Part shown: positions 5,447 to 19,367 of the stretch, piece after piece
Numbering within the stretch: position 1 is the stretch's first letter
How the letters are laid out: every line of letters begins with the position of its first letter
DNA from: a virus
IMG/VR virus record: IMGVR_UViG_3300027976_000260
Coordinates: 1-20,708 of that record
DNA length: 20,708 bases
Strand: one strand, 5' to 3'
Program-made: the position numbers and the translations under genes
The notes under the pieces: model-generated
Databases searched by the model: none
The model's input: only the letters and a program-made list of their open reading frames with translations
Told to the model about the DNA's origin: nothing

Positions 5447-6145
5447 ATGAATAACTCTCCACTCTCAGCAATTCCCACGTTCGGTTCCGCGACACTCGAG
5501 TCCGACTTTGATATGTCGACGTACGAGGCGGGGAAACCGCTACGCGGAAATAGCAAAAGGCAATTCGTACGGTTTTACAGTCATACGTTTACTGAGGTTT
5601 ACACAACCAAGGCAAACATAAACGAGAAAACCGGATCTTCTACTCCCGTCGAAACGGGAGTGAGAGAGGTCACAAAGGAGATGGTTAATATTGTTACTCC
5701 GGGAGATCCCAATATAGTTGATGAGTATGCGACCGCATGGCATCGGCGCATGTTTTTTAAACAATACAAAGCGTTCCGAGATGGGAAAACCGCACCGATG
5801 GGGTACCCGGTTGAGGAGGCGCAGTTTATTGGGCCGAGTATTGCGACCGAGCTAAAATATTTAGGGTGCCACACTGTCGAGCAGTTAGCGGATGCATCAG
5901 ATGTATTGTGCGGGAATCTTGCGAACGGTTTTGAGTTACGAGATTTTGCGAGATCGTATTGCAAGGCGCAGATATCTAATAAGACATCTCCTCAAGTAAT
6001 ATTGCTACACGCGGAGCTGGAGAAAGCGAAAGCAGAGATCTCCGCAATGAGATTGCACCTGGACTCCGCTCTTGTGGATCTTAAGGGCCAACCGATCAAA
6101 ACATCCGGGCGCAAGGGCAAAAGTGATTTAAAATTTATAGAGTGA
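5447..6145 (+). CDS. Phage structural-module protein with C-terminal helical domain
   Basis: 232 residues. The N-terminal half holds a phage-typical segment: VNIVTPGDPNIVDEYATAWH, then a basic stretch RRMFFKQYKAFRDGKTAPMG and YPVEE (about 90-130). After it comes ELKYLGCHTVEQLADASD (about 137-154) and FELRDFARSYCKA, resembling a small helix-hairpin-helix-like module seen in phage proteins encoded near the capsid gene. The C terminus is a predicted coiled coil (LHAELEKAKAEISAMRLHLD, about 188-207) with a basic tail. Biochemical role unknown. It lies between the decoration candidate and the exported fibre-like gene; its TGA overlaps the GTG/ATG start region of the next gene. An AAGAAG sequence directly before the ATG is its only ribosome-binding hint. 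Confidence 0.65.
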   Translation: MNNSPLSAIPTFGSATLESDFDMSTYEAGKPLRGNSKRQFVRFYSHTFTEVYTTKANINEKTGSSTPVETGVREVTKEMVNIVTPGDPNIVDEYATAWHRRMFFKQYKAFRDGKTAPMGYPVEEAQFIGPSIATELKYLGCHTVEQLADASDVLCGNLANGFELRDFARSYCKAQISNKTSPQVILLHAELEKAKAEISAMRLHLDSALVDLKGQPIKTSGRKGKSDLKFIE

Positions 6146-6147
6146 TT

Positions 6148-6987
6148 ATGAAATTAAATAAATTAGTTATCGCGTGTTTGGCATCGGCGCTACTCTCATC
6201 CTCCGCCTATGCGGATGCGTGCGGCACACTTCTTACCGGCACATTCCCAGCTGCGCAGGCAAGAAAATTATGCGCGACTTTTCCGCAGATTGGAGTTTAC
6301 TCTTCTGATATTCTCCCGGCGGCAAATAATACCTACGATATAGGATCGCAAGATCTGTTGTGGAGTCAGGTGTGGAGCTACAGCGCTGTGCTCCTCCGGT
6401 ACGGAGCCGATGTACAAGGGGCGGCAACCACCTACTACAAGACTCGAGGAGCGGGACCAACTAGCTACACAATACTAACTGACGGTGATGCGATTGGGAC
6501 ACTCCGGTTTATTGGATCTGACGGTTCCGGATTTACTCAGGGCGCGCAAATTGAAGGGTTTGTCGATGGGACTCCCGGCGTGTCGGATATGCCCGGAGCA
6601 ATACGGTTACAGACTACGCCAGACGGCTCAGACACTCCGCTTACTCGCTGGACCGTAAAGGCGAGCGGCGATCTTGTGAGTGATAGCACGAGCGGCGGTA
6701 ACTTAACTCTCGCAGTTGCGGGGAAAAAAATCACAGTAAAAGGCGGCGGCGCGGCGGCAACGGCGGGCACATTTACGTGTAATGGTACTACCGGCGTAGT
6801 GGTCGCAACTACTGCGGCATCCGTAACAGGCATGACTATCGTATTCGCCCCGGCCACGATCTCTGGCTCCGCTGGAGTAGGAGCACCATTCGTTTCCGCA
6901 ATTTCTGCGGGAGTGAGTTTCTCCGCAAAATGTAGCGCTGTCGGAGAGACCTCTACATATAACTGGGCAATGATTTCTGTGAGCTGA
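6148..6987 (+). CDS. Fibre-like protein with N-terminal signal peptide
   Basis: 279 residues from the ATG at 6148; a GTG at 6142 would add only two residues before the signal sequence. Residues 1-23 form a classic Sec signal peptide: K-rich start, hydrophobic core, and SAYA before DACG, an A-x-A site. The mature part looks like phage tail-fibre sequence: NNTYDIGSQDLLWSQVWSYS (about 52-71) and a C terminus with GTFTCNGTTGVVVATTAASV followed by TSTYNWAMISVS, a pattern common at the ends of phage fibre proteins. A tail fibre should not need export, so this may be a host-surface or periplasmic protein, for instance one blocking superinfection, rather than a virion part. Cysteines at the start and near the end of the mature protein could form disulphides in the periplasm. 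Confidence 0.65.
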   Translation: MKLNKLVIACLASALLSSSAYADACGTLLTGTFPAAQARKLCATFPQIGVYSSDILPAANNTYDIGSQDLLWSQVWSYSAVLLRYGADVQGAATTYYKTRGAGPTSYTILTDGDAIGTLRFIGSDGSGFTQGAQIEGFVDGTPGVSDMPGAIRLQTTPDGSDTPLTRWTVKASGDLVSDSTSGGNLTLAVAGKKITVKGGGAAATAGTFTCNGTTGVVVATTAASVTGMTIVFAPATISGSAGVGAPFVSAISAGVSFSAKCSAVGETSTYNWAMISVS

Positions 6988-6990
6988 AAA

Positions 6991-7194
6991 ATGAGAAGAT
7001 TACTTTTTGTTTTGTTGCTTTGCGGCTGTAGCGCCGCAGGAAAACAGAATGAGGTAGACGCGGCGATAGCCACACACTCGGCAGTAATTACAGCGATTAC
7101 GGAGTATGTGGCTAACTTGCAACAGCTAGAGATCTTACCAACTACGGCAGAGGCTAAGGCAAAACTTGATGCGCAAGCGTTAACAGTCAAGTAG
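6991..7194 (+). CDS. Small predicted lipoprotein
   Basis: 67 residues. The N terminus is MRRLLFVLLLCGCSAAG, with a lipobox L-C-G-C that would place the lipidated cysteine at residue 13. The mature part is about 55 residues, Ala-rich and helical (NEVDAAIATHSAVITAITEY), with two Thr/Ala-rich ends. It starts three bases after the exported fibre-like gene and probably forms a pair with it. Size and lipidation recall outer-membrane spanins (Rz1) and superinfection-exclusion lipoproteins, but it lacks the Pro-rich body usual for Rz1 and lies far from the lysis genes. Function not known. Confidence 0.65.
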   Translation: MRRLLFVLLLCGCSAAGKQNEVDAAIATHSAVITAITEYVANLQQLEILPTTAEAKAKLDAQALTVK

Positions 7195-7228
7195 TGATCA
7201 GAGATTGGTTTATTTTGGCGGGTCCGAT

Positions 7229-8152
7229 GTGTCAACGATCAAAGAGATCTTACAAAATTTTTGTCACAGAATAAATGTACCGGCCCCTAGCTCGTTCGTA
7301 GGAATCTCTCAACCCGCACAGCAGCAGTATCTATCACTCCTCCAATTCGTGGGCGACAATCTCCGCAATCGACCGTATCAATGGCCGCAGCTAAAGCGCG
7401 GATACAAATTTAACACTGCCGTGGGCGTTCGCAATTATCAACTACCAGGTGACTTTTACCGCATCCTAGAATCATCTCAATGGGATGTCGGTAATAACTG
7501 GCCGATGATGGGACCGCTATCAGATGCGGCGTTTACCTTTAGCGAGTTCGCAATAGTTTCCCTCCAAACTCGTAAGGGGTATAGGCTGATAGGGCCTACT
7601 CAATATCTATACTCCACTGCACCGTACTCTAAGAGATCTCGCGGATGGTTTCAAATTGAGCCTGCCGGGGTTAACAATACGGATGAGCTTTTTTTGGGTT
7701 ACGTATCTTGTAATTGGGTGTGGCCGCGTGATTGGGTAGCATCCACTGCGTACTCATTAGGAGATGTTAGAGCGGGCAACGGTTACGTTTACATTGTAAC
7801 AACGGCGGGCACGAGCGGCACAACTAGGCCGAGCGTAGCAACTGGCACACAGACAGACGGCACGGTTACGTGGACAGTGTACACGGAGGACTACCCATGC
7901 CAAGCGGCCAACGCAAAATTAAACGACGGCGATCAAATACTTTTTGACGAGGATCTTATGATCGAGGGTATGAGATGGTCATACCTAAGATCTAAGGGGC
8001 TAGATTATCAGCAAGAGAGATCAGATTGGGAGGCGCAGTGTAAGAGCGCGTTCGCCAGGTTTAACGGGCCAGTGCGGATAAATGTAGCGAGAGACTTAAA
8101 CGATGCTCTCGGGCTGTGGCCGTTAGCACCAGAGGGATCATGGAGCGTATAA
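7229..8152 (+). CDS. Head-tail adaptor, P22 gp4-like, with inserted beta module
   Basis: 307 residues from GTG 7229 (VSTIKEILQNFCHRINVPAP). An upstream TTG at 7205 would add eight residues; the GTG fits better with the usual N terminus of these adaptors. The core matches the P22 gp4-type family: a helical N terminus with INVPAPSSF, QQYLSLLQFVGDNLRNRPYQWPQL, then YQLPGDFYRILESSQWD and a C-terminal QILFDEDLMIEGMRWSYLRS. It would bind the portal ring from outside and close the head. Residues about 169-216 (WVASTAYSLGDVRAGNG ... DGTVTWTVY) are a separate module inserted in the core, with the T-A-Y-x-x-G-D ... A-G-T-S-G ... D-G-T-V-T-W pattern of small exposed phage beta domains. Neither start has a good Shine-Dalgarno. 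Confidence 0.72.
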   Translation: MSTIKEILQNFCHRINVPAPSSFVGISQPAQQQYLSLLQFVGDNLRNRPYQWPQLKRGYKFNTAVGVRNYQLPGDFYRILESSQWDVGNNWPMMGPLSDAAFTFSEFAIVSLQTRKGYRLIGPTQYLYSTAPYSKRSRGWFQIEPAGVNNTDELFLGYVSCNWVWPRDWVASTAYSLGDVRAGNGYVYIVTTAGTSGTTRPSVATGTQTDGTVTWTVYTEDYPCQAANAKLNDGDQILFDEDLMIEGMRWSYLRSKGLDYQQERSDWEAQCKSAFARFNGPVRINVARDLNDALGLWPLAPEGSWSV

Positions 8153-8156
8153 AAAA

Positions 8157-9548
8157 ATGGAAGTGAATTTAGGCGCAATTAATTACGCAAACTATCAGAG
8201 TTGGGAGATGCTAACCGCACCATCCGGCGCTGTCTATTACGTAGTACCCGGCACGGCGTACGTATACGATCCGTTTTTGTCTCAACAAAAAGGGCGGGCG
8301 GTTTTATGGCAAAACCCAAAAGCGACCTGGGAGGAAAAAGCTCGCACAGAAAAAATGATAGAAAATGCTAACTCTCCTACGGGACAAGTGGCGGCTGTTG
8401 CCGGGCCGGTACTCGGGACGGTAGGCGCGAATTACGCGATTAATGCACTAGGGCCTACTAGTGCGGCTACTCAGGGCGGAGCGCAATTAGCGGCGCAAGG
8501 CGGTACTCAATTAGCGGCGCAAGCCGGTGCTCAGGGCGGATCGGCGGCTCTTGCCGCTCCAGAAATCTTGGGAGTCACGAGGGGAACGGCAGAACTCGCG
8601 GCGGGTAACACTACAAACGCATCCGCTACCTCTGCGGGCGAGGGTCTCGGTACAGCGGTCGGGATAGCAACAACTGCTAAGGGGGCCTATGACACACAAA
8701 GAGGATGGGAGAGCGGCGGAGAGGGTTTACGCAGTGGCCTAACTACTATGGGAGCAGGAGCAGGCGGCCTAATAGCAGGGCCACTCGGGGCGGCGGCCGG
8801 AGGGTTAATAGGTAATGTTCTCGGCTACGGATTACAGGGGAGCGGCTGGAAAAATCACGCCGCGTTAGTAGCAACGGCTCCAATATTAGCTGGCCTAAAG
8901 CTTAGTGGCGTTAACCTCGTACACCAAACTACGAGGCAGTTACAGCAAGAACATACGCAAAAATTATTAGAGTCTGCGCCTACGAATGAGGCGTGGGCTA
9001 ATTATGTTAAGAGCATGCGGTACCAAGAAGCAAATAAGGATATGCCGTTCGCAGGCAAATACAAAACTTTTGAAGAGTATAAAAAAGCTGGCCTACAGGC
9101 CGATGATCTAACTGGAGTGTACGGTAACCTCAATGCATTCGGGGCGGGGACAACGCGCGACTGGTTGACGTTAACGTTTCTGGAGAAAAAGAAAGTAACG
9201 CAAGGGCTTATCGATGCGGGCCTATACGACTCGACCAAGGGTGAGGTTATTATTACCGATCCGATTAAGGCGAATGATGTTTTTGATAAAACTCTTGGTC
9301 GTGCTGCTCCCACAACATCGAGCGGCGCGTTTGCAGACGGCGCGGGGTTGCCGAATCCAAAAGATAAACAATCATTAATTGGGAGGATAGAGCCTCCGCA
9401 GAATTTAATCGGGAGAGTCGCTCCGGCTCCAATAGTTATGGAGCAACCAATGAGATCCAAAACTCTATCCCCTGGCGTTGGTCTCGATGGGCAGAGACTC
9501 GAGACGGAGAGATTGGGAAAATTGTTAGCGAAGAGGCTCAAAAAATAG
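8157..9548 (+). CDS. Glycine/alanine-rich virion protein, possible ejection protein
   Basis: 463 residues. After an ordered N-terminal domain (about 1-70, ending WQNPKATWEEKARTE) comes a low-complexity region with near-repeats GGAQLAAQ, GGTQLAAQ and AGAQ (about 105-125). A Gly-zipper-like hydrophobic stretch follows (GAGAGGLIAGPLGAAAGGLI, about 199-218). These Gly zippers are characteristic of phage proteins that enter or cross membranes during DNA ejection. The C-terminal half is soluble and mixed, ending in a basic coiled tail (ETERLGKLLAKRLKK). Order between adaptor and tail hub fits an internal or tail-associated virion protein. The TAG stop shares its last base with the GTG start of the next gene. 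Confidence 0.55.
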   Translation: MEVNLGAINYANYQSWEMLTAPSGAVYYVVPGTAYVYDPFLSQQKGRAVLWQNPKATWEEKARTEKMIENANSPTGQVAAVAGPVLGTVGANYAINALGPTSAATQGGAQLAAQGGTQLAAQAGAQGGSAALAAPEILGVTRGTAELAAGNTTNASATSAGEGLGTAVGIATTAKGAYDTQRGWESGGEGLRSGLTTMGAGAGGLIAGPLGAAAGGLIGNVLGYGLQGSGWKNHAALVATAPILAGLKLSGVNLVHQTTRQLQQEHTQKLLESAPTNEAWANYVKSMRYQEANKDMPFAGKYKTFEEYKKAGLQADDLTGVYGNLNAFGAGTTRDWLTLTFLEKKKVTQGLIDAGLYDSTKGEVIITDPIKANDVFDKTLGRAAPTTSSGAFADGAGLPNPKDKQSLIGRIEPPQNLIGRVAPAPIVMEQPMRSKTLSPGVGLDGQRLETERLGKLLAKRLKK

Positions 9549-16366: not shown

Positions 16367-16750
16367 GTGGAGAGTTACACCGTTGATCCAGTACGCAAGT
16401 TTGAGACTAAAGGCGGAGTATCTCAACTGATTAGCGTGCCGTTTGCGGCAGCGGTAGGCGTTAATCAGGTAGTATATGCAGCTGTCGCTACTCAGCGCAT
16501 CCGCGTCATGGGATGGAGAGCGCACAGTAATACGGCCGCACTCGGATCGTGGACACTAAAAAGCGGGACACTCGTTACAATCGGCGGGCCAAATTGGGCA
16601 CCGCTAAATACCGCCCCTGTGGATATTATGCCGGTAGTAGATAGTGGATACCTAGAGACTGATACCGGGTTTGGATTACTTGTAGATGTTGCGCTCTCTG
16701 CCGTTAATTTTAACATTTTTATTATCGTATACACTCCGGGCACAATCTAG
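16367..16750 (+). CDS. Small beta-rich phage protein B (related to A)
   Basis: 127 residues from a GTG one base after the upstream stop; no Shine-Dalgarno is visible, so translation is probably coupled. The segment VVYAAVATQRIRVMGWRAHS (about 35-54) aligns with the same region of protein A, and the strand order after it is similar (short hydrophobic strands, a Gly-rich turn, a final hydrophobic strand). The two are likely old duplicates. Function unknown. The TAG stop shares its G with the GTG start of the next gene. Confidence 0.6.
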   Translation: MESYTVDPVRKFETKGGVSQLISVPFAAAVGVNQVVYAAVATQRIRVMGWRAHSNTAALGSWTLKSGTLVTIGGPNWAPLNTAPVDIMPVVDSGYLETDTGFGLLVDVALSAVNFNIFIIVYTPGTI

Positions 16751-17037
16751 TGGAAACAAAGGAAAACGGAGGGGAGCATAGATCGAAATATCACCTCCGT
16801 TTTTCAAAAGTCGAAGGGGCCTTGGCTACGATCGAGGCGGAACTTGCAACTGCGATACGAGACCAGACTAAAGTGACACGAGAATTATCGGCGGCTGTTG
16901 TGCACTTAACAAACGAGATCGGATTATGGGATCGGTCAGTCCCGATTAAATTGGTTATGATCATGTTTGGCGTGCTCGTGGGGGCAATCGGTAGCATCGA
17001 CGCTATACATGCGTACATACGATTAGCGGAGCGTTAA
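16750..17037 (+). CDS. Coiled-coil membrane protein, possible lysis accessory
   Basis: 95 residues from a GTG overlapping the upstream TAG. Residues about 18-58 form an amphipathic helix or coiled coil (KVEGALATIEAELATAIRDQ), and about 67-88 form one transmembrane segment (IKLVMIMFGVLVGAIGSID). This soluble-helix-then-single-TM layout is that of XhlA-type holin partners and some phage superinfection proteins. It lies four bases before a holin candidate, so a role in membrane permeabilisation is likely but not shown by sequence. A GTG start with no clear ribosome binding site suggests low or coupled expression. Confidence 0.55.
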   Translation: METKENGGEHRSKYHLRFSKVEGALATIEAELATAIRDQTKVTRELSAAVVHLTNEIGLWDRSVPIKLVMIMFGVLVGAIGSIDAIHAYIRLAER

Positions 17038-17041
17038 TATT

Positions 17042-17233
17042 ATGGCAAACTTCAGTCAGAAGAAAATCAAAACTATACTAGGCGCGATCTTAGCTCTCGG
17101 AGGGCTTGCGTATAATGTGGATTGGGACACTCTCCTCGAGAGTCACCCGCAGATTATCAGCGGCGTGATCGCAATACTCGGCACGTACTTAAGCTCAACC
17201 GGCCCGAGTGTAAAACGGCAGCGACGACTATGA
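17042..17233 (+). CDS. Holin candidate
   Basis: 63 residues with two short hydrophobic stretches: about 11-25 (TILGAILALGGLAYN) and about 37-50 (QIISGVIAILGTYL), separated by an acidic turn (DWDTLLESHP), and a basic C-terminal tail (VKRQRRL). This is the usual layout of a small two-TM holin that would open the inner membrane at the time of lysis. It has GAG upstream with loose spacing. The final bases overlap the next gene as ATGA, so holin and the exported protease are translated in sequence. No second start giving an antiholin was recognised. Confidence 0.5.
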   Translation: MANFSQKKIKTILGAILALGGLAYNVDWDTLLESHPQIISGVIAILGTYLSSTGPSVKRQRRL

Positions 17234-17838
17234 GACTATTCGCACTATTAGTAGCGGCGTTCTTTTTTATTAACAGTGCGCGCGCGGAGATCTCTGTAAA
17301 CCTTGTCGTAGCACAGGGACCTAATAGCCTAACAAGAGAGGAGGCAGATAGTTTATTTAATGCCGCGAATATGCAAGTTACGCTGCAGATGGGAGAGCCT
17401 CTCGTATTAAAAAAATACCGGGTAATCTCTAATCCATTTCCCGAGGAGCAAAAAAAACTATCTAAAAGACTCCGACTTTTGCGGCTGTGGGACGGATGGT
17501 TTAAGCGGCGCGGTGTGGGCGCGGATGTTAATTACGCAATCACTCCACCGTTTGAGGACGGCGGCCTATACTGGATGGCGGGATACTCAGAGGGCGTGTG
17601 CAAAAAAAACGGCACTGCGTACTCAACCGCCGAGATGTTTAATAACTACGGAGCGCCGCGATTCGAGCACTCTCTTGTCGCGTTTTTACACGAGCTGGGG
17701 CACATCGTGGGCGGAGAGCACGAGGACTCGAACACTCTCATGCACGCCGATGCATTAGCGCGGACTGAAAGGATGAAGAAAATCCGATACTCCAACCAAA
17801 CAAGCGAGAGGATCAAAAAATGTCTAAGAAAGTGGTAA
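17230..17838 (+). CDS. Exported metzincin-type zinc metalloprotease
   Basis: 202 residues from ATG 17230, which overlaps the holin-candidate stop (ATGA). A longer reading from 17122 would bury the signal peptide 36 residues inside. Residues 1-17 (MRLFALLVAAFFFINSA) with SARA before EISVN are a Sec signal with an A-x-A site. The catalytic centre is H154-E155-L-G-H158-I-V-G161-G-E-H164, the full metzincin HExxHxxGxxH, with a likely Met-turn at M171 (NTLMHAD). H154, H158 and H164 bind zinc; E155 is the general base. The only Cys in the mature protein are in EGVCKKN and IKKCLRK, perhaps a disulphide. It sits where an endolysin is expected, so it may cut envelope proteins during lysis. Metzincin assignment is firm; substrate is unknown. 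Confidence 0.8.
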   Translation: MRLFALLVAAFFFINSARAEISVNLVVAQGPNSLTREEADSLFNAANMQVTLQMGEPLVLKKYRVISNPFPEEQKKLSKRLRLLRLWDGWFKRRGVGADVNYAITPPFEDGGLYWMAGYSEGVCKKNGTAYSTAEMFNNYGAPRFEHSLVAFLHELGHIVGGEHEDSNTLMHADALARTERMKKIRYSNQTSERIKKCLRKW

Positions 17839-17945
17839 CGAAGAAAAACTACGTTCAGGCGTTAATCGTGTGTTGTTTTTTTGCGTGCCTGTTAGTGCTC
17901 GGATCGTTGGCGTTTTTGTTAACTAAGATGGCGATAACTTTATGA
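17820..17945 (+). CDS. 41-residue single-TM peptide
   Basis: Encodes a 41-residue peptide beginning MSKKVVTKKNY, with one strong TM helix (about 13-35, ALIVCCFFACLLVLGSLAF). Three cysteines lie in the membrane part. It overlaps the metalloprotease end by 19 bases in another frame, and its own TGA overlaps the ATG of the next gene as ATGA. Chained overlaps of this kind are strong evidence for real small genes. A basic N terminus and a short C terminus suggest an inner-membrane protein, compatible with a holin, antiholin or inner-membrane spanin part. No similarity can be claimed. Confidence 0.55.
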   Translation: MSKKVVTKKNYVQALIVCCFFACLLVLGSLAFLLTKMAITL

Positions 17946-18103
17946 CAACAAAAAAGATAAAGAAAAAGAACTCTCAAGATCTTACAGTGCGAAATTTAAG
18001 AGCCGCGAAAAAGAGAGAGTCGAGTTTGGAGGCGAGAGTACAAAAATTAGAATCGTACGTCATGGAGTTGCGCATACTAGCGAGGGGAAACCCCCCATTT
18101 TAA
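17942..18103 (+). CDS. 53-residue basic coiled-coil peptide
   Basis: 53 residues, starting inside the stop of the TM peptide (ATGA). The N terminus is very basic (MTTKKIKKKNSQD), and the middle has heptad-like spacing (SLEARVQKLESYVMELRIL), a coiled-coil prediction by eye. It could be the soluble partner of the adjacent TM peptide: a spanin-like or antiholin function split over two open frames. It is followed after a single base by the ATG of the FN3-like gene. Its short length makes function uncertain; the overlap chain is the main support. Confidence 0.5.
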   Translation: MTTKKIKKKNSQDLTVRNLRAAKKRESSLEARVQKLESYVMELRILARGNPPF

Positions 18104-18104
18104 A

Positions 18105-18494
18105 ATGAGCAAAATACTTATCGCAATCGCGGCGTGTTGTTGCATGGGCATGGTGAGGGGTGAGGTAGTATGGACGGAGTGGAAGCGCCCATTAATAAAT
18201 ACTGACGGATCTCCTCTGACAGATCTCAAGGGGTACGCTATTTACATTACCTCTGATAATCCTCGCAAAAATTCCGCCTATAGTGTGTTTCCGATTCTTG
18301 CAATAAATCAGACCGTGGTTAAATGGCCGTTTTTAGTTGGGGACAATGATTGTTTCTATGTGCAGATTGCATCTATTAATAATAAAAACATCGAGAGTGT
18401 AAAAACAGATAAAGTTACAATAAAAGGAAAAGGAATTTATGAAAAAAATCTTACTTGCTCTGCTACTCCTAGCGCCACTCCGCACGTACGCTGA
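18105..18494 (+). CDS. Exported fibronectin-III-like protein A
   Basis: 129 residues with a hydrophobic N terminus (MSKILIAIAACCCMG). A lipobox reading I-A-A-C could lipidate C11, or a signal peptidase I site lies near MVRGE; the triple cysteine is odd. The mature part has the FN3-type pattern VVWTEWKRP, a DGSPLTDLKGYAIYI stretch, then VKWPFLVGDNDCFYVQIASI. FN3 domains mediate binding, often to carbohydrate or protein surfaces. Its last 56 bases run in a different frame over the start of the next FN3-like gene. Probable duplicate of that neighbour. The domain assignment is by eye, and function is unknown. Confidence 0.55.
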   Translation: MSKILIAIAACCCMGMVRGEVVWTEWKRPLINTDGSPLTDLKGYAIYITSDNPRKNSAYSVFPILAINQTVVKWPFLVGDNDCFYVQIASINNKNIESVKTDKVTIKGKGIYEKNLTCSATPSATPHVR

Positions 18495-18792
18495 TACAAT
18501 TACGTTTGTGTGGGATGCGGTAACAACTGGCGTTGACGGTCAGCCGGTTGTTGGGTTGATCGGATATAAATTATATACATCAAAAACTAGTGGCGTGTAT
18601 GCGGCTCCGGTTAAAACGGTAACGACATCCGCCACGCCAACATCTAGTGTGATAGAGCCGCTAATCGGGAAATATTTTGCCGTTGTGACTGCCTACAATG
18701 AGGCGGGAGAGAGCGCGAAATCTTCGGAAGTTTCATACGAGGTAAAAGCAAAAGTCCCAACCGCACCGGTGCAATTTAAAACTGTCCCGTAA
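18439..18792 (+). CDS. Exported fibronectin-III-like protein B
   Basis: 117 residues with a Sec signal MKKILLALLLLAPLRTYADT (cleavage likely after TYA). The mature part is almost exactly one FN3 domain: ITFVWDAVTTGVDGQPVVG, the strand LIGYKLYTSKTSGVY, then GKYFAVVTAYNEAGESAKSS, matching the Y-x-x-x-V-x-A-x-N-x-x-G-x-S-x-x-S signature of strands F and G. It has a strong upstream AAAAGGAAAAGGAA. It overlaps the previous gene by 56 bases in another frame, a longer overlap than usual in this genome. Both FN3-like proteins share W-x-x-x, D-G-x-P-[LV]-x-x-L-x-G-Y, indicating duplication. Probable periplasmic or surface binding protein at the end of the late operon. Confidence 0.65.
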   Translation: MKKILLALLLLAPLRTYADTITFVWDAVTTGVDGQPVVGLIGYKLYTSKTSGVYAAPVKTVTTSATPTSSVIEPLIGKYFAVVTAYNEAGESAKSSEVSYEVKAKVPTAPVQFKTVP

Positions 18793-19027: not shown

Positions 19028-19052
19028 CTTCCACCCAAAAAAAATGTGGAAG
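19028..19052 (+). promoter_or_regulatory. Hairpin covering the nuclease start codon
   Basis: CTTCCAC (19028-19034) pairs perfectly with GTGGAAG (19046-19052). The ATG at 19044 sits at the loop/stem border. No Shine-Dalgarno is visible upstream, so translation would depend on opening this stem or on another mechanism. Confidence 0.45.
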
Positions 19053-19367
19053 AAGAGAAATAAATACGGCGCAAAAAAAATCGAGATAGATGGAATTATC
19101 TTTGCGTCACGAAAAGAGGGAGCGCGGTACAGCGATCTCAAGTTACTCCTCAAGGCGGGAAAAATTTCTAACCTGCAACTGCAGGTAAAATTTCCAATCG
19201 TAGTGGAAGGAAAAAAAATCTGTATTTATATTGCAGATTTCACCTACTGCGAATTACCGCTATTCCCGGTAATTGAGGACGTAAAGGGGATCAGAACGCC
19301 GCTATTTAATTTGAAGTGGAAATTGATGCAGGCCATGTACCCAAAAAATACATTTCGGATCACATGA
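19044..19367 (+). CDS. DUF1064-like PDDEXK nuclease
   Basis: 107 residues. Family features are the N-terminal NKYGAKK followed by a G-I-x-F-x-S-R-K-E-x-x-R-Y motif (residues 17-29), then IYIADFTY with D65 and IEDVKG with D79 and K81. E25, D65 and D79-x-K81 match a PDDEXK-type active site, so the protein is expected to bind a metal ion and cut DNA. DUF1064 genes are common in phages, but substrate and role (replication, recombination, packaging or defence) are not settled. The YGAKK motif is near the start, so ATG 19044 is the only sensible start. It stands alone between a structured leader and a symmetrical terminator, apart from the late operon. Confidence 0.75.
   Translation: MWKKRNKYGAKKIEIDGIIFASRKEGARYSDLKLLLKAGKISNLQLQVKFPIVVEGKKICIYIADFTYCELPLFPVIEDVKGIRTPLFNLKWKLMQAMYPKNTFRIT

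Follow-up and report, generated by a model that had tools for sequence, protein, structure and literature searches.

In Listeria, a phage-derived secreted metzincin (Mtz) is paired with a TIMP-like lipoprotein (Tim) (Boichis et al. 2021, PMC8235301). Their genes are often located downstream of the holin-lysin genes in prophages, and Mtz and Tim together, and only if the enzyme is active, sensitise cells to holin-lysin lysis; virion release is about 5-fold higher with the pair, and Mtz also cleaves Tim (PMC8235301). Hence, a phage metzincin acting with lysis is already known. The exported metzincin described here is encoded by a 20.7-kb stretch of DNA (hereafter the window, meaning the whole stretch) from an uncultured phage of the short-tailed type. 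Compared with the published description of Mtz, it is likewise a phage-associated, Sec-exported metzincin with the extended zinc site and a Met-turn; its accessory gene is placed towards the end of the lysis region, and a second exported protein accompanies it. However, Mtz-Tim belongs to a Gram-positive host and lies downstream of a real holin-lysin pair, and its TIMP-like lipoprotein partner has no counterpart seen in the window, where the exported proteins encoded downstream of the metzincin are without a clear lipobox. The arrangement of Mtz and Tim as a pair makes these co-encoded exported proteins worth attention.

Further points of comparison are the adamalysin/reprolysin family (MEROPS M12B) and fragilysin. 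With M12B, the window protein shares family matches above threshold, a single catalytic domain and a cysteine pair at matching positions, whereas it has neither a prodomain nor a disintegrin domain and is phage-encoded. In reprolysins, the third histidine of the zinc site is followed by Asp. This residue is Glu165 in the window metzincin, and Asp in its homologue L131; the window protein is therefore called M12B-like and not a member of M12B. Fragilysin, which gave the best PDB fold matches, shares with the window protein a bacterial metzincin catalytic fold belonging to the ADAM group, but the two are only about 15-18% identical, and fragilysin carries a large prodomain and attacks animal tissue. 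There is no indication of such a target for the window metzincin.

The gene and its sequence features are as follows:

17230..17838, + strand: exported metzincin (M12B/reprolysin-like) of 202 aa, assigned on families, fold and selection
17230..17286, + strand: Sec signal peptide with a predicted cut after ARA19, from sequence and alignment
17599..17601, + strand: Cys124, invariant in the six family sequences aligned
17689..17721, + strand: zinc-binding site, H154 E155 L G H158 x2 G161 x2 H164
17740..17742, + strand: Met-turn methionine, M171
17821..17823, + strand: Cys198, invariant partner of Cys124 in the alignment

The first-pass annotation had described a Sec signal peptide, a full HExxHxxGxxH site and a Met-turn, and all of these are present in the 202-aa translation, with H154 and E155 correctly numbered. 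Export was predicted with sequence rules rather than a dedicated program, and the predicted signal peptide reads MRLFALLVAAFFFINSARA|E. The zinc site reads HELGHIVGGEH, and M171 is invariant in the aligned family sequences. Cys124 and Cys198, both kept in the six sequences aligned, probably form a disulfide, their positions presumably matching the 117-197 bond of adamalysin. The HExxHxxGxxH...M motif was obtained in 0 of 200,000 shuffles of the protein and its complete form occurs once in the six frames of the window. Together with the Pfam matches and the dN/dS of a 91% identical copy (see below), this indicates that the open reading frame is not a chance one.

In Pfam, the window metzincin matches Reprolysin_5 (PF13688, E 7.6e-7, 30 bits against a cut-off of 27) and Reprolysin_3 (PF13582, E 1.8e-5, 25.7 bits against 22.4). 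The L131 homologue also passes Reprolysin_2, Reprolysin_4 and Reprolysin (PF01421, 21.7 against 20.8). No family was found in PHROGs, no match above the cut-off in NCBIfam and no relative among 50,697 phage records. The cultured phage records and plasmids searched held no homologue, and two scans of genome contigs with narrow patterns returned no cellular one. An AlphaFold2 model of medium confidence, built from 23 window and locus sequences, reached a pLDDT of 66 and a pTM of 0.64, the stretch before the active-site helix falling below 50 pLDDT. The top PDB matches of this model in Foldseek are all metzincins (probability 1.00, best E 1.8e-5) and include fragilysin, ADAM10, adamalysin-type venom proteases, archaemetzincin and ADAMTS. 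A better match to an unrelated fold had been named as grounds for abandoning the assignment, and no such fold appears among the best 50 matches listed. As modelled, the window protein has the metzincin catalytic fold, and the original call of an exported metzincin is borne out by families, fold, selection and homologues.

The window carries a portal, a major head protein and tail genes. Its portal distantly resembles those of Myxococcus phage Mx8, a Stenotrophomonas phage and a Bradyrhizobium phage, from which a Gram-negative host appears likely. Upstream of the metzincin, the genes run in the order 861-aa virion protein with an SLT domain, two small virion-like proteins, 95-aa transmembrane (TM) protein and 63-aa TM protein; downstream, a 41-aa TM open reading frame, a 53-aa peptide, two exported proteins and a resolvase-like gene follow:

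16750..17037, + strand: 95-aa protein with a charged N-terminal part and a C-terminal transmembrane segment
17042..17233, + strand: 63-aa open reading frame with two weak hydrophobic segments, the holin candidate of the first-pass annotation, absent from L001
17820..17945, + strand: 41-aa open reading frame with a single TM segment, which overlaps the 3′ end of the metzincin gene and is missing in L001
17942..18103, + strand: 53-aa charged, coiled-coil-like peptide, in the shared cassette
18105..18494, + strand: 129-aa exported protein with a signal peptide, 98% identical in phage G001
18439..18792, + strand: 117-aa exported protein, in tandem with the 129-aa one and distantly related to it; the resemblance to fibronectin III is by eye only
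19044..19367, + strand: Holliday-junction-resolvase-like gene, first of the next module

The metzincin ATG overlaps the stop of the 63-aa frame as ATGA, as had been reported. The identity of the latter as a holin is nonetheless insecure, since its hydrophobic segments are weak, it matches no family and it has no homologue in phage records or IMG/VR. Similarly, the description of the surroundings as a lysis-like cassette is only partly supported: no endolysin is nearby, and conserved synteny with a holin and an endolysin was not found. Searches of the window for endolysins of the lysozyme, amidase and M15_4 types gave none, and the SLT domain in the 861-aa virion protein is the sole murein hydrolase domain found near the metzincin. 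Promoter and terminator scans around the metzincin gene remained at chance level, so its co-transcription is suggested by the layout.

Elsewhere in the window, a tail-fibre-like protein (6142-6987, phrog_9942, 1e-16) begins with a Sec signal peptide and is directly followed by a 67-aa lipoprotein-like frame (6991-7194). In L137 (6135-7109) and L146 (7015-8997 and 8997-10097), too, fibre-like or large structural-region proteins carry signal peptides. The product of 9548-11146 matches the PHROG 5107 ‘amidase’ (2e-22), yet it sits among tail genes and the label may be wrong.

A close copy of the metzincin was found in one IMG/VR contig only, at locus L001 of phage G001 (27.4 kb), with 91% protein identity. 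The dN/dS of the mature metzincin against L001 is 0.086 (Fisher p 2e-13) and every zinc ligand is kept; the gene is under strong purifying selection. The possibility that the frame is non-functional or misread is thus very remote, given this ratio, the conserved zinc site and cysteines, and homologues in five other phages. The DNA common to the window and G001 lies in two segments:

17252..17850, + strand: 92% identity, left edge inside the signal peptide
17958..18571, + strand: 96% identity, reaching the end of the G001 contig

The rest of the window has no other significant DNA similarity to G001, nor any protein similarity at E 0.01, and the window portal has no match there. Hence a cassette comprising the metzincin, the 53-aa peptide and the two small exported proteins is swapped between unrelated phages. 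In L001, the n-region of the signal peptide is replaced while the AxA|EISVN cleavage site is retained. The 63-aa gene is absent upstream of the L001 metzincin, and a TM protein of about 104 aa with the same layout as the 95-aa protein is encoded directly upstream instead. The 41-aa frame is missing as well, the junction lying at a repeated KKKN coding stretch. The dS between the window and G001 is 0.29 for the metzincin and 0.03 for the 129-aa gene; exchange of the cassette thus probably took more than one step.

Profile-guided scans of viral contigs recovered divergent homologues. Full-length relatives are L131 (32% identity), L132 (31%) and L133 (24%), and the L137/L065 homologue, present in five contigs, is 33% identical to the L131 protein. 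The HExxHxxGxxH site and the Met-turn methionine are retained in L131 (first copy), L132, L133 and L137, and the cysteine pair is kept except in L137. Loss of the zinc ligands in homologues had been proposed as evidence against the protease, and it occurs in part: the second L131 copy (7880-8443) reads HNIAHILGAFD, having lost the catalytic glutamate and the third ligand, while the other homologues keep the site. This paralogue means that some members of the family may act non-catalytically. The L131 metzincin is surrounded by small exported genes, an LpxR (3e-67) and a Peptidase_C1, with replication genes beyond; L132 follows RecT; L133 is near an Enc34-type ssDNA-binding protein, the lysozyme of this phage being 20 kb away on the other strand; and L137 lies between a fibre-like gene and replication genes. 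No recognised lysis gene adjoins any of these four. An occurrence of homologues only outside lysis cassettes, likewise named as a ground for doubt, thus applies in part, namely to these copies in accessory or early regions, and conservation of synteny with holins in other phages is weak for the family, L001 itself being without the 63-aa gene. Exported proteins are not significantly enriched in the six phages carrying the family (16/281 against 52/1370, p 0.14, with a crude predictor).

In L131, the LpxR lipid-A deacylase (5577-6476, 3e-67), the papain-like peptidase (6460-7263, 2.7e-15) and the dead-site paralogue are all close to the active-type metzincin. The same contig encodes a protein resembling adenylosuccinate synthetase/PurZ by eye (28-1014), which hints at a base-modified (Z) genome.

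Metzincins are common in viral contigs, a motif scan giving at least 120 matches. Because the members of this census were picked by motif, an iterated profile search drifts to all metzincins and was not used for membership. The view of the first-pass annotation that phage lysis genes normally do not encode metzincins is contradicted by Mtz-Tim (PMC8235301) and by three census loci. In L031 a Phage_lysozyme (4.5e-7) is directly upstream of a lipoprotein metzincin, L059 has a metzincin, a TM protein, a lipoprotein and an amidase (Amidase_2, 1e-11), and L067 has a metzincin, a TM protein and a GH108 endolysin (4e-23). These three metzincins resemble that of the window in being exported, about 175-205 aa long and equipped with the zinc site and Met-turn, but they are mostly matrixin-like by Pfam, have a real endolysin alongside and show no full-length similarity to it. 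Lysis genes were rejected as the general company of viral metzincins: an hmmscan of 150 proteins neighbouring census metzincins revealed no dominant lysis family, and, among the matches listed, small TM genes were found near 20 of 51 metzincins against 45 of 174 controls, an excess that is not significant (p 0.08).

Several other census loci deserve mention. In L098 (3299-3997), a coiled coil and TM segment, XhlA-like by eye, is in frame with a metzincin domain, possibly a lysis protein naturally fused to a protease. L022, L023, L053, L093, L104 and L129 represent a large viral metzincin family without a signal peptide, often encoded directly downstream of a small TM protein. They are perhaps from viruses of marine archaea, in which the protease could serve as an S-layer lysin; the archaeal-virus literature consulted on metalloproteases offered no useful precedent. 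L004 (332-1625) contains two tandem lipoprotein zincins on a 394-kb phage contig.

Taken together, the sequence evidence leans modestly towards a Sec-exported, catalytically competent M12B-like endopeptidase, which is carried by a mobile accessory cassette at the junction of late and early genes and cuts envelope proteins. The protein would combine a signal peptide with one catalytic domain, probably stabilised by a single disulfide. Its gene closes the late region and immediately precedes the replication module; the protein would probably be made late with the upstream membrane proteins, cross the inner membrane by Sec, fold in the periplasm and cut host envelope proteins in a zinc-dependent manner. 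The neighbours, i.e., the 129-aa and 117-aa exported proteins here and LpxR with Peptidase_C1 at L131, point to the envelope as the site of action. The outcome could be easier envelope rupture and release or a remodelling of the infected-cell surface, such as removal of a receptor; the two appear about equally likely, each falling a little short of an even chance.

Acting as an accessory to lysis and co-translated with the 63-aa holin-like gene, the metzincin would weaken the envelope or replace spanins and thereby speed up release. The ATGA overlap and the TM gene upstream are consistent with this role, as are the TM-protein gene directly upstream in L001, the phage metzincins adjoining endolysins (L031, L059 and L067) and the increase in holin-lysin lysis by Mtz-Tim in Listeria (PMC8235301). 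However, no endolysin lies beside the gene, the 63-aa gene is not shared with L001, the divergent homologues occur away from lysis cassettes, the metzincins next to lysis genes are for the most part matrixin-like by Pfam and are not full-length relatives, and the excess of small TM genes over the control, among the matches listed, is weak. This role is conceivable to the same degree as that of a moron for envelope remodelling or superinfection exclusion, in which surface proteins would be altered so as to become unusable for other phages or for sister virions adsorbing to debris. The position of the L131 copy among consecutive small exported genes, beside LpxR and the papain-like peptidase, the accessory or early location of the family in L131, L132, L133 and L137, and the moron-like movement of the cassette between unrelated phages speak for the latter, whereas the window gene follows late genes, and nothing indicative of lysogeny genes was noted in the window.

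It is rather improbable that the metzincin is chiefly a maturation protease, whose main substrate would be the co-encoded 129-aa or 117-aa exported protein as the true effector. Both exported proteins accompany it in both phages and Mtz cleaves Tim, but the neighbourhoods inspected of other homologues are without such partners, and the dS difference (0.29 against 0.03) implies that the metzincin and the 129-aa gene do not always move together.

To our knowledge, there are hardly any examples, beyond the listerial Mtz-Tim, of phage proteins that attack the proteins of the envelope instead of the cell wall. Because no PHROG corresponds to it and no member occurs in 50,697 phage records, the family would escape annotation. 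The metzincins in lysis cassettes of unrelated phages (L031, L059 and L067) constitute a distinct group, mostly matrixin-like, which merits separate study. The window metzincin, a small enzyme with ready catalytic controls, provides a tool to ask if phages digest proteins of the host envelope and, if so, whether this serves release or the exclusion of rivals. A broader and more doubtful proposal is that ADAM-like metzincins, in some cases together with a lipid-A deacylase and a papain-like protease, are exported by a family of phages and would remodel the infected-cell surface irrespective of lysis, the protease genes moving as cassettes between unrelated phages.
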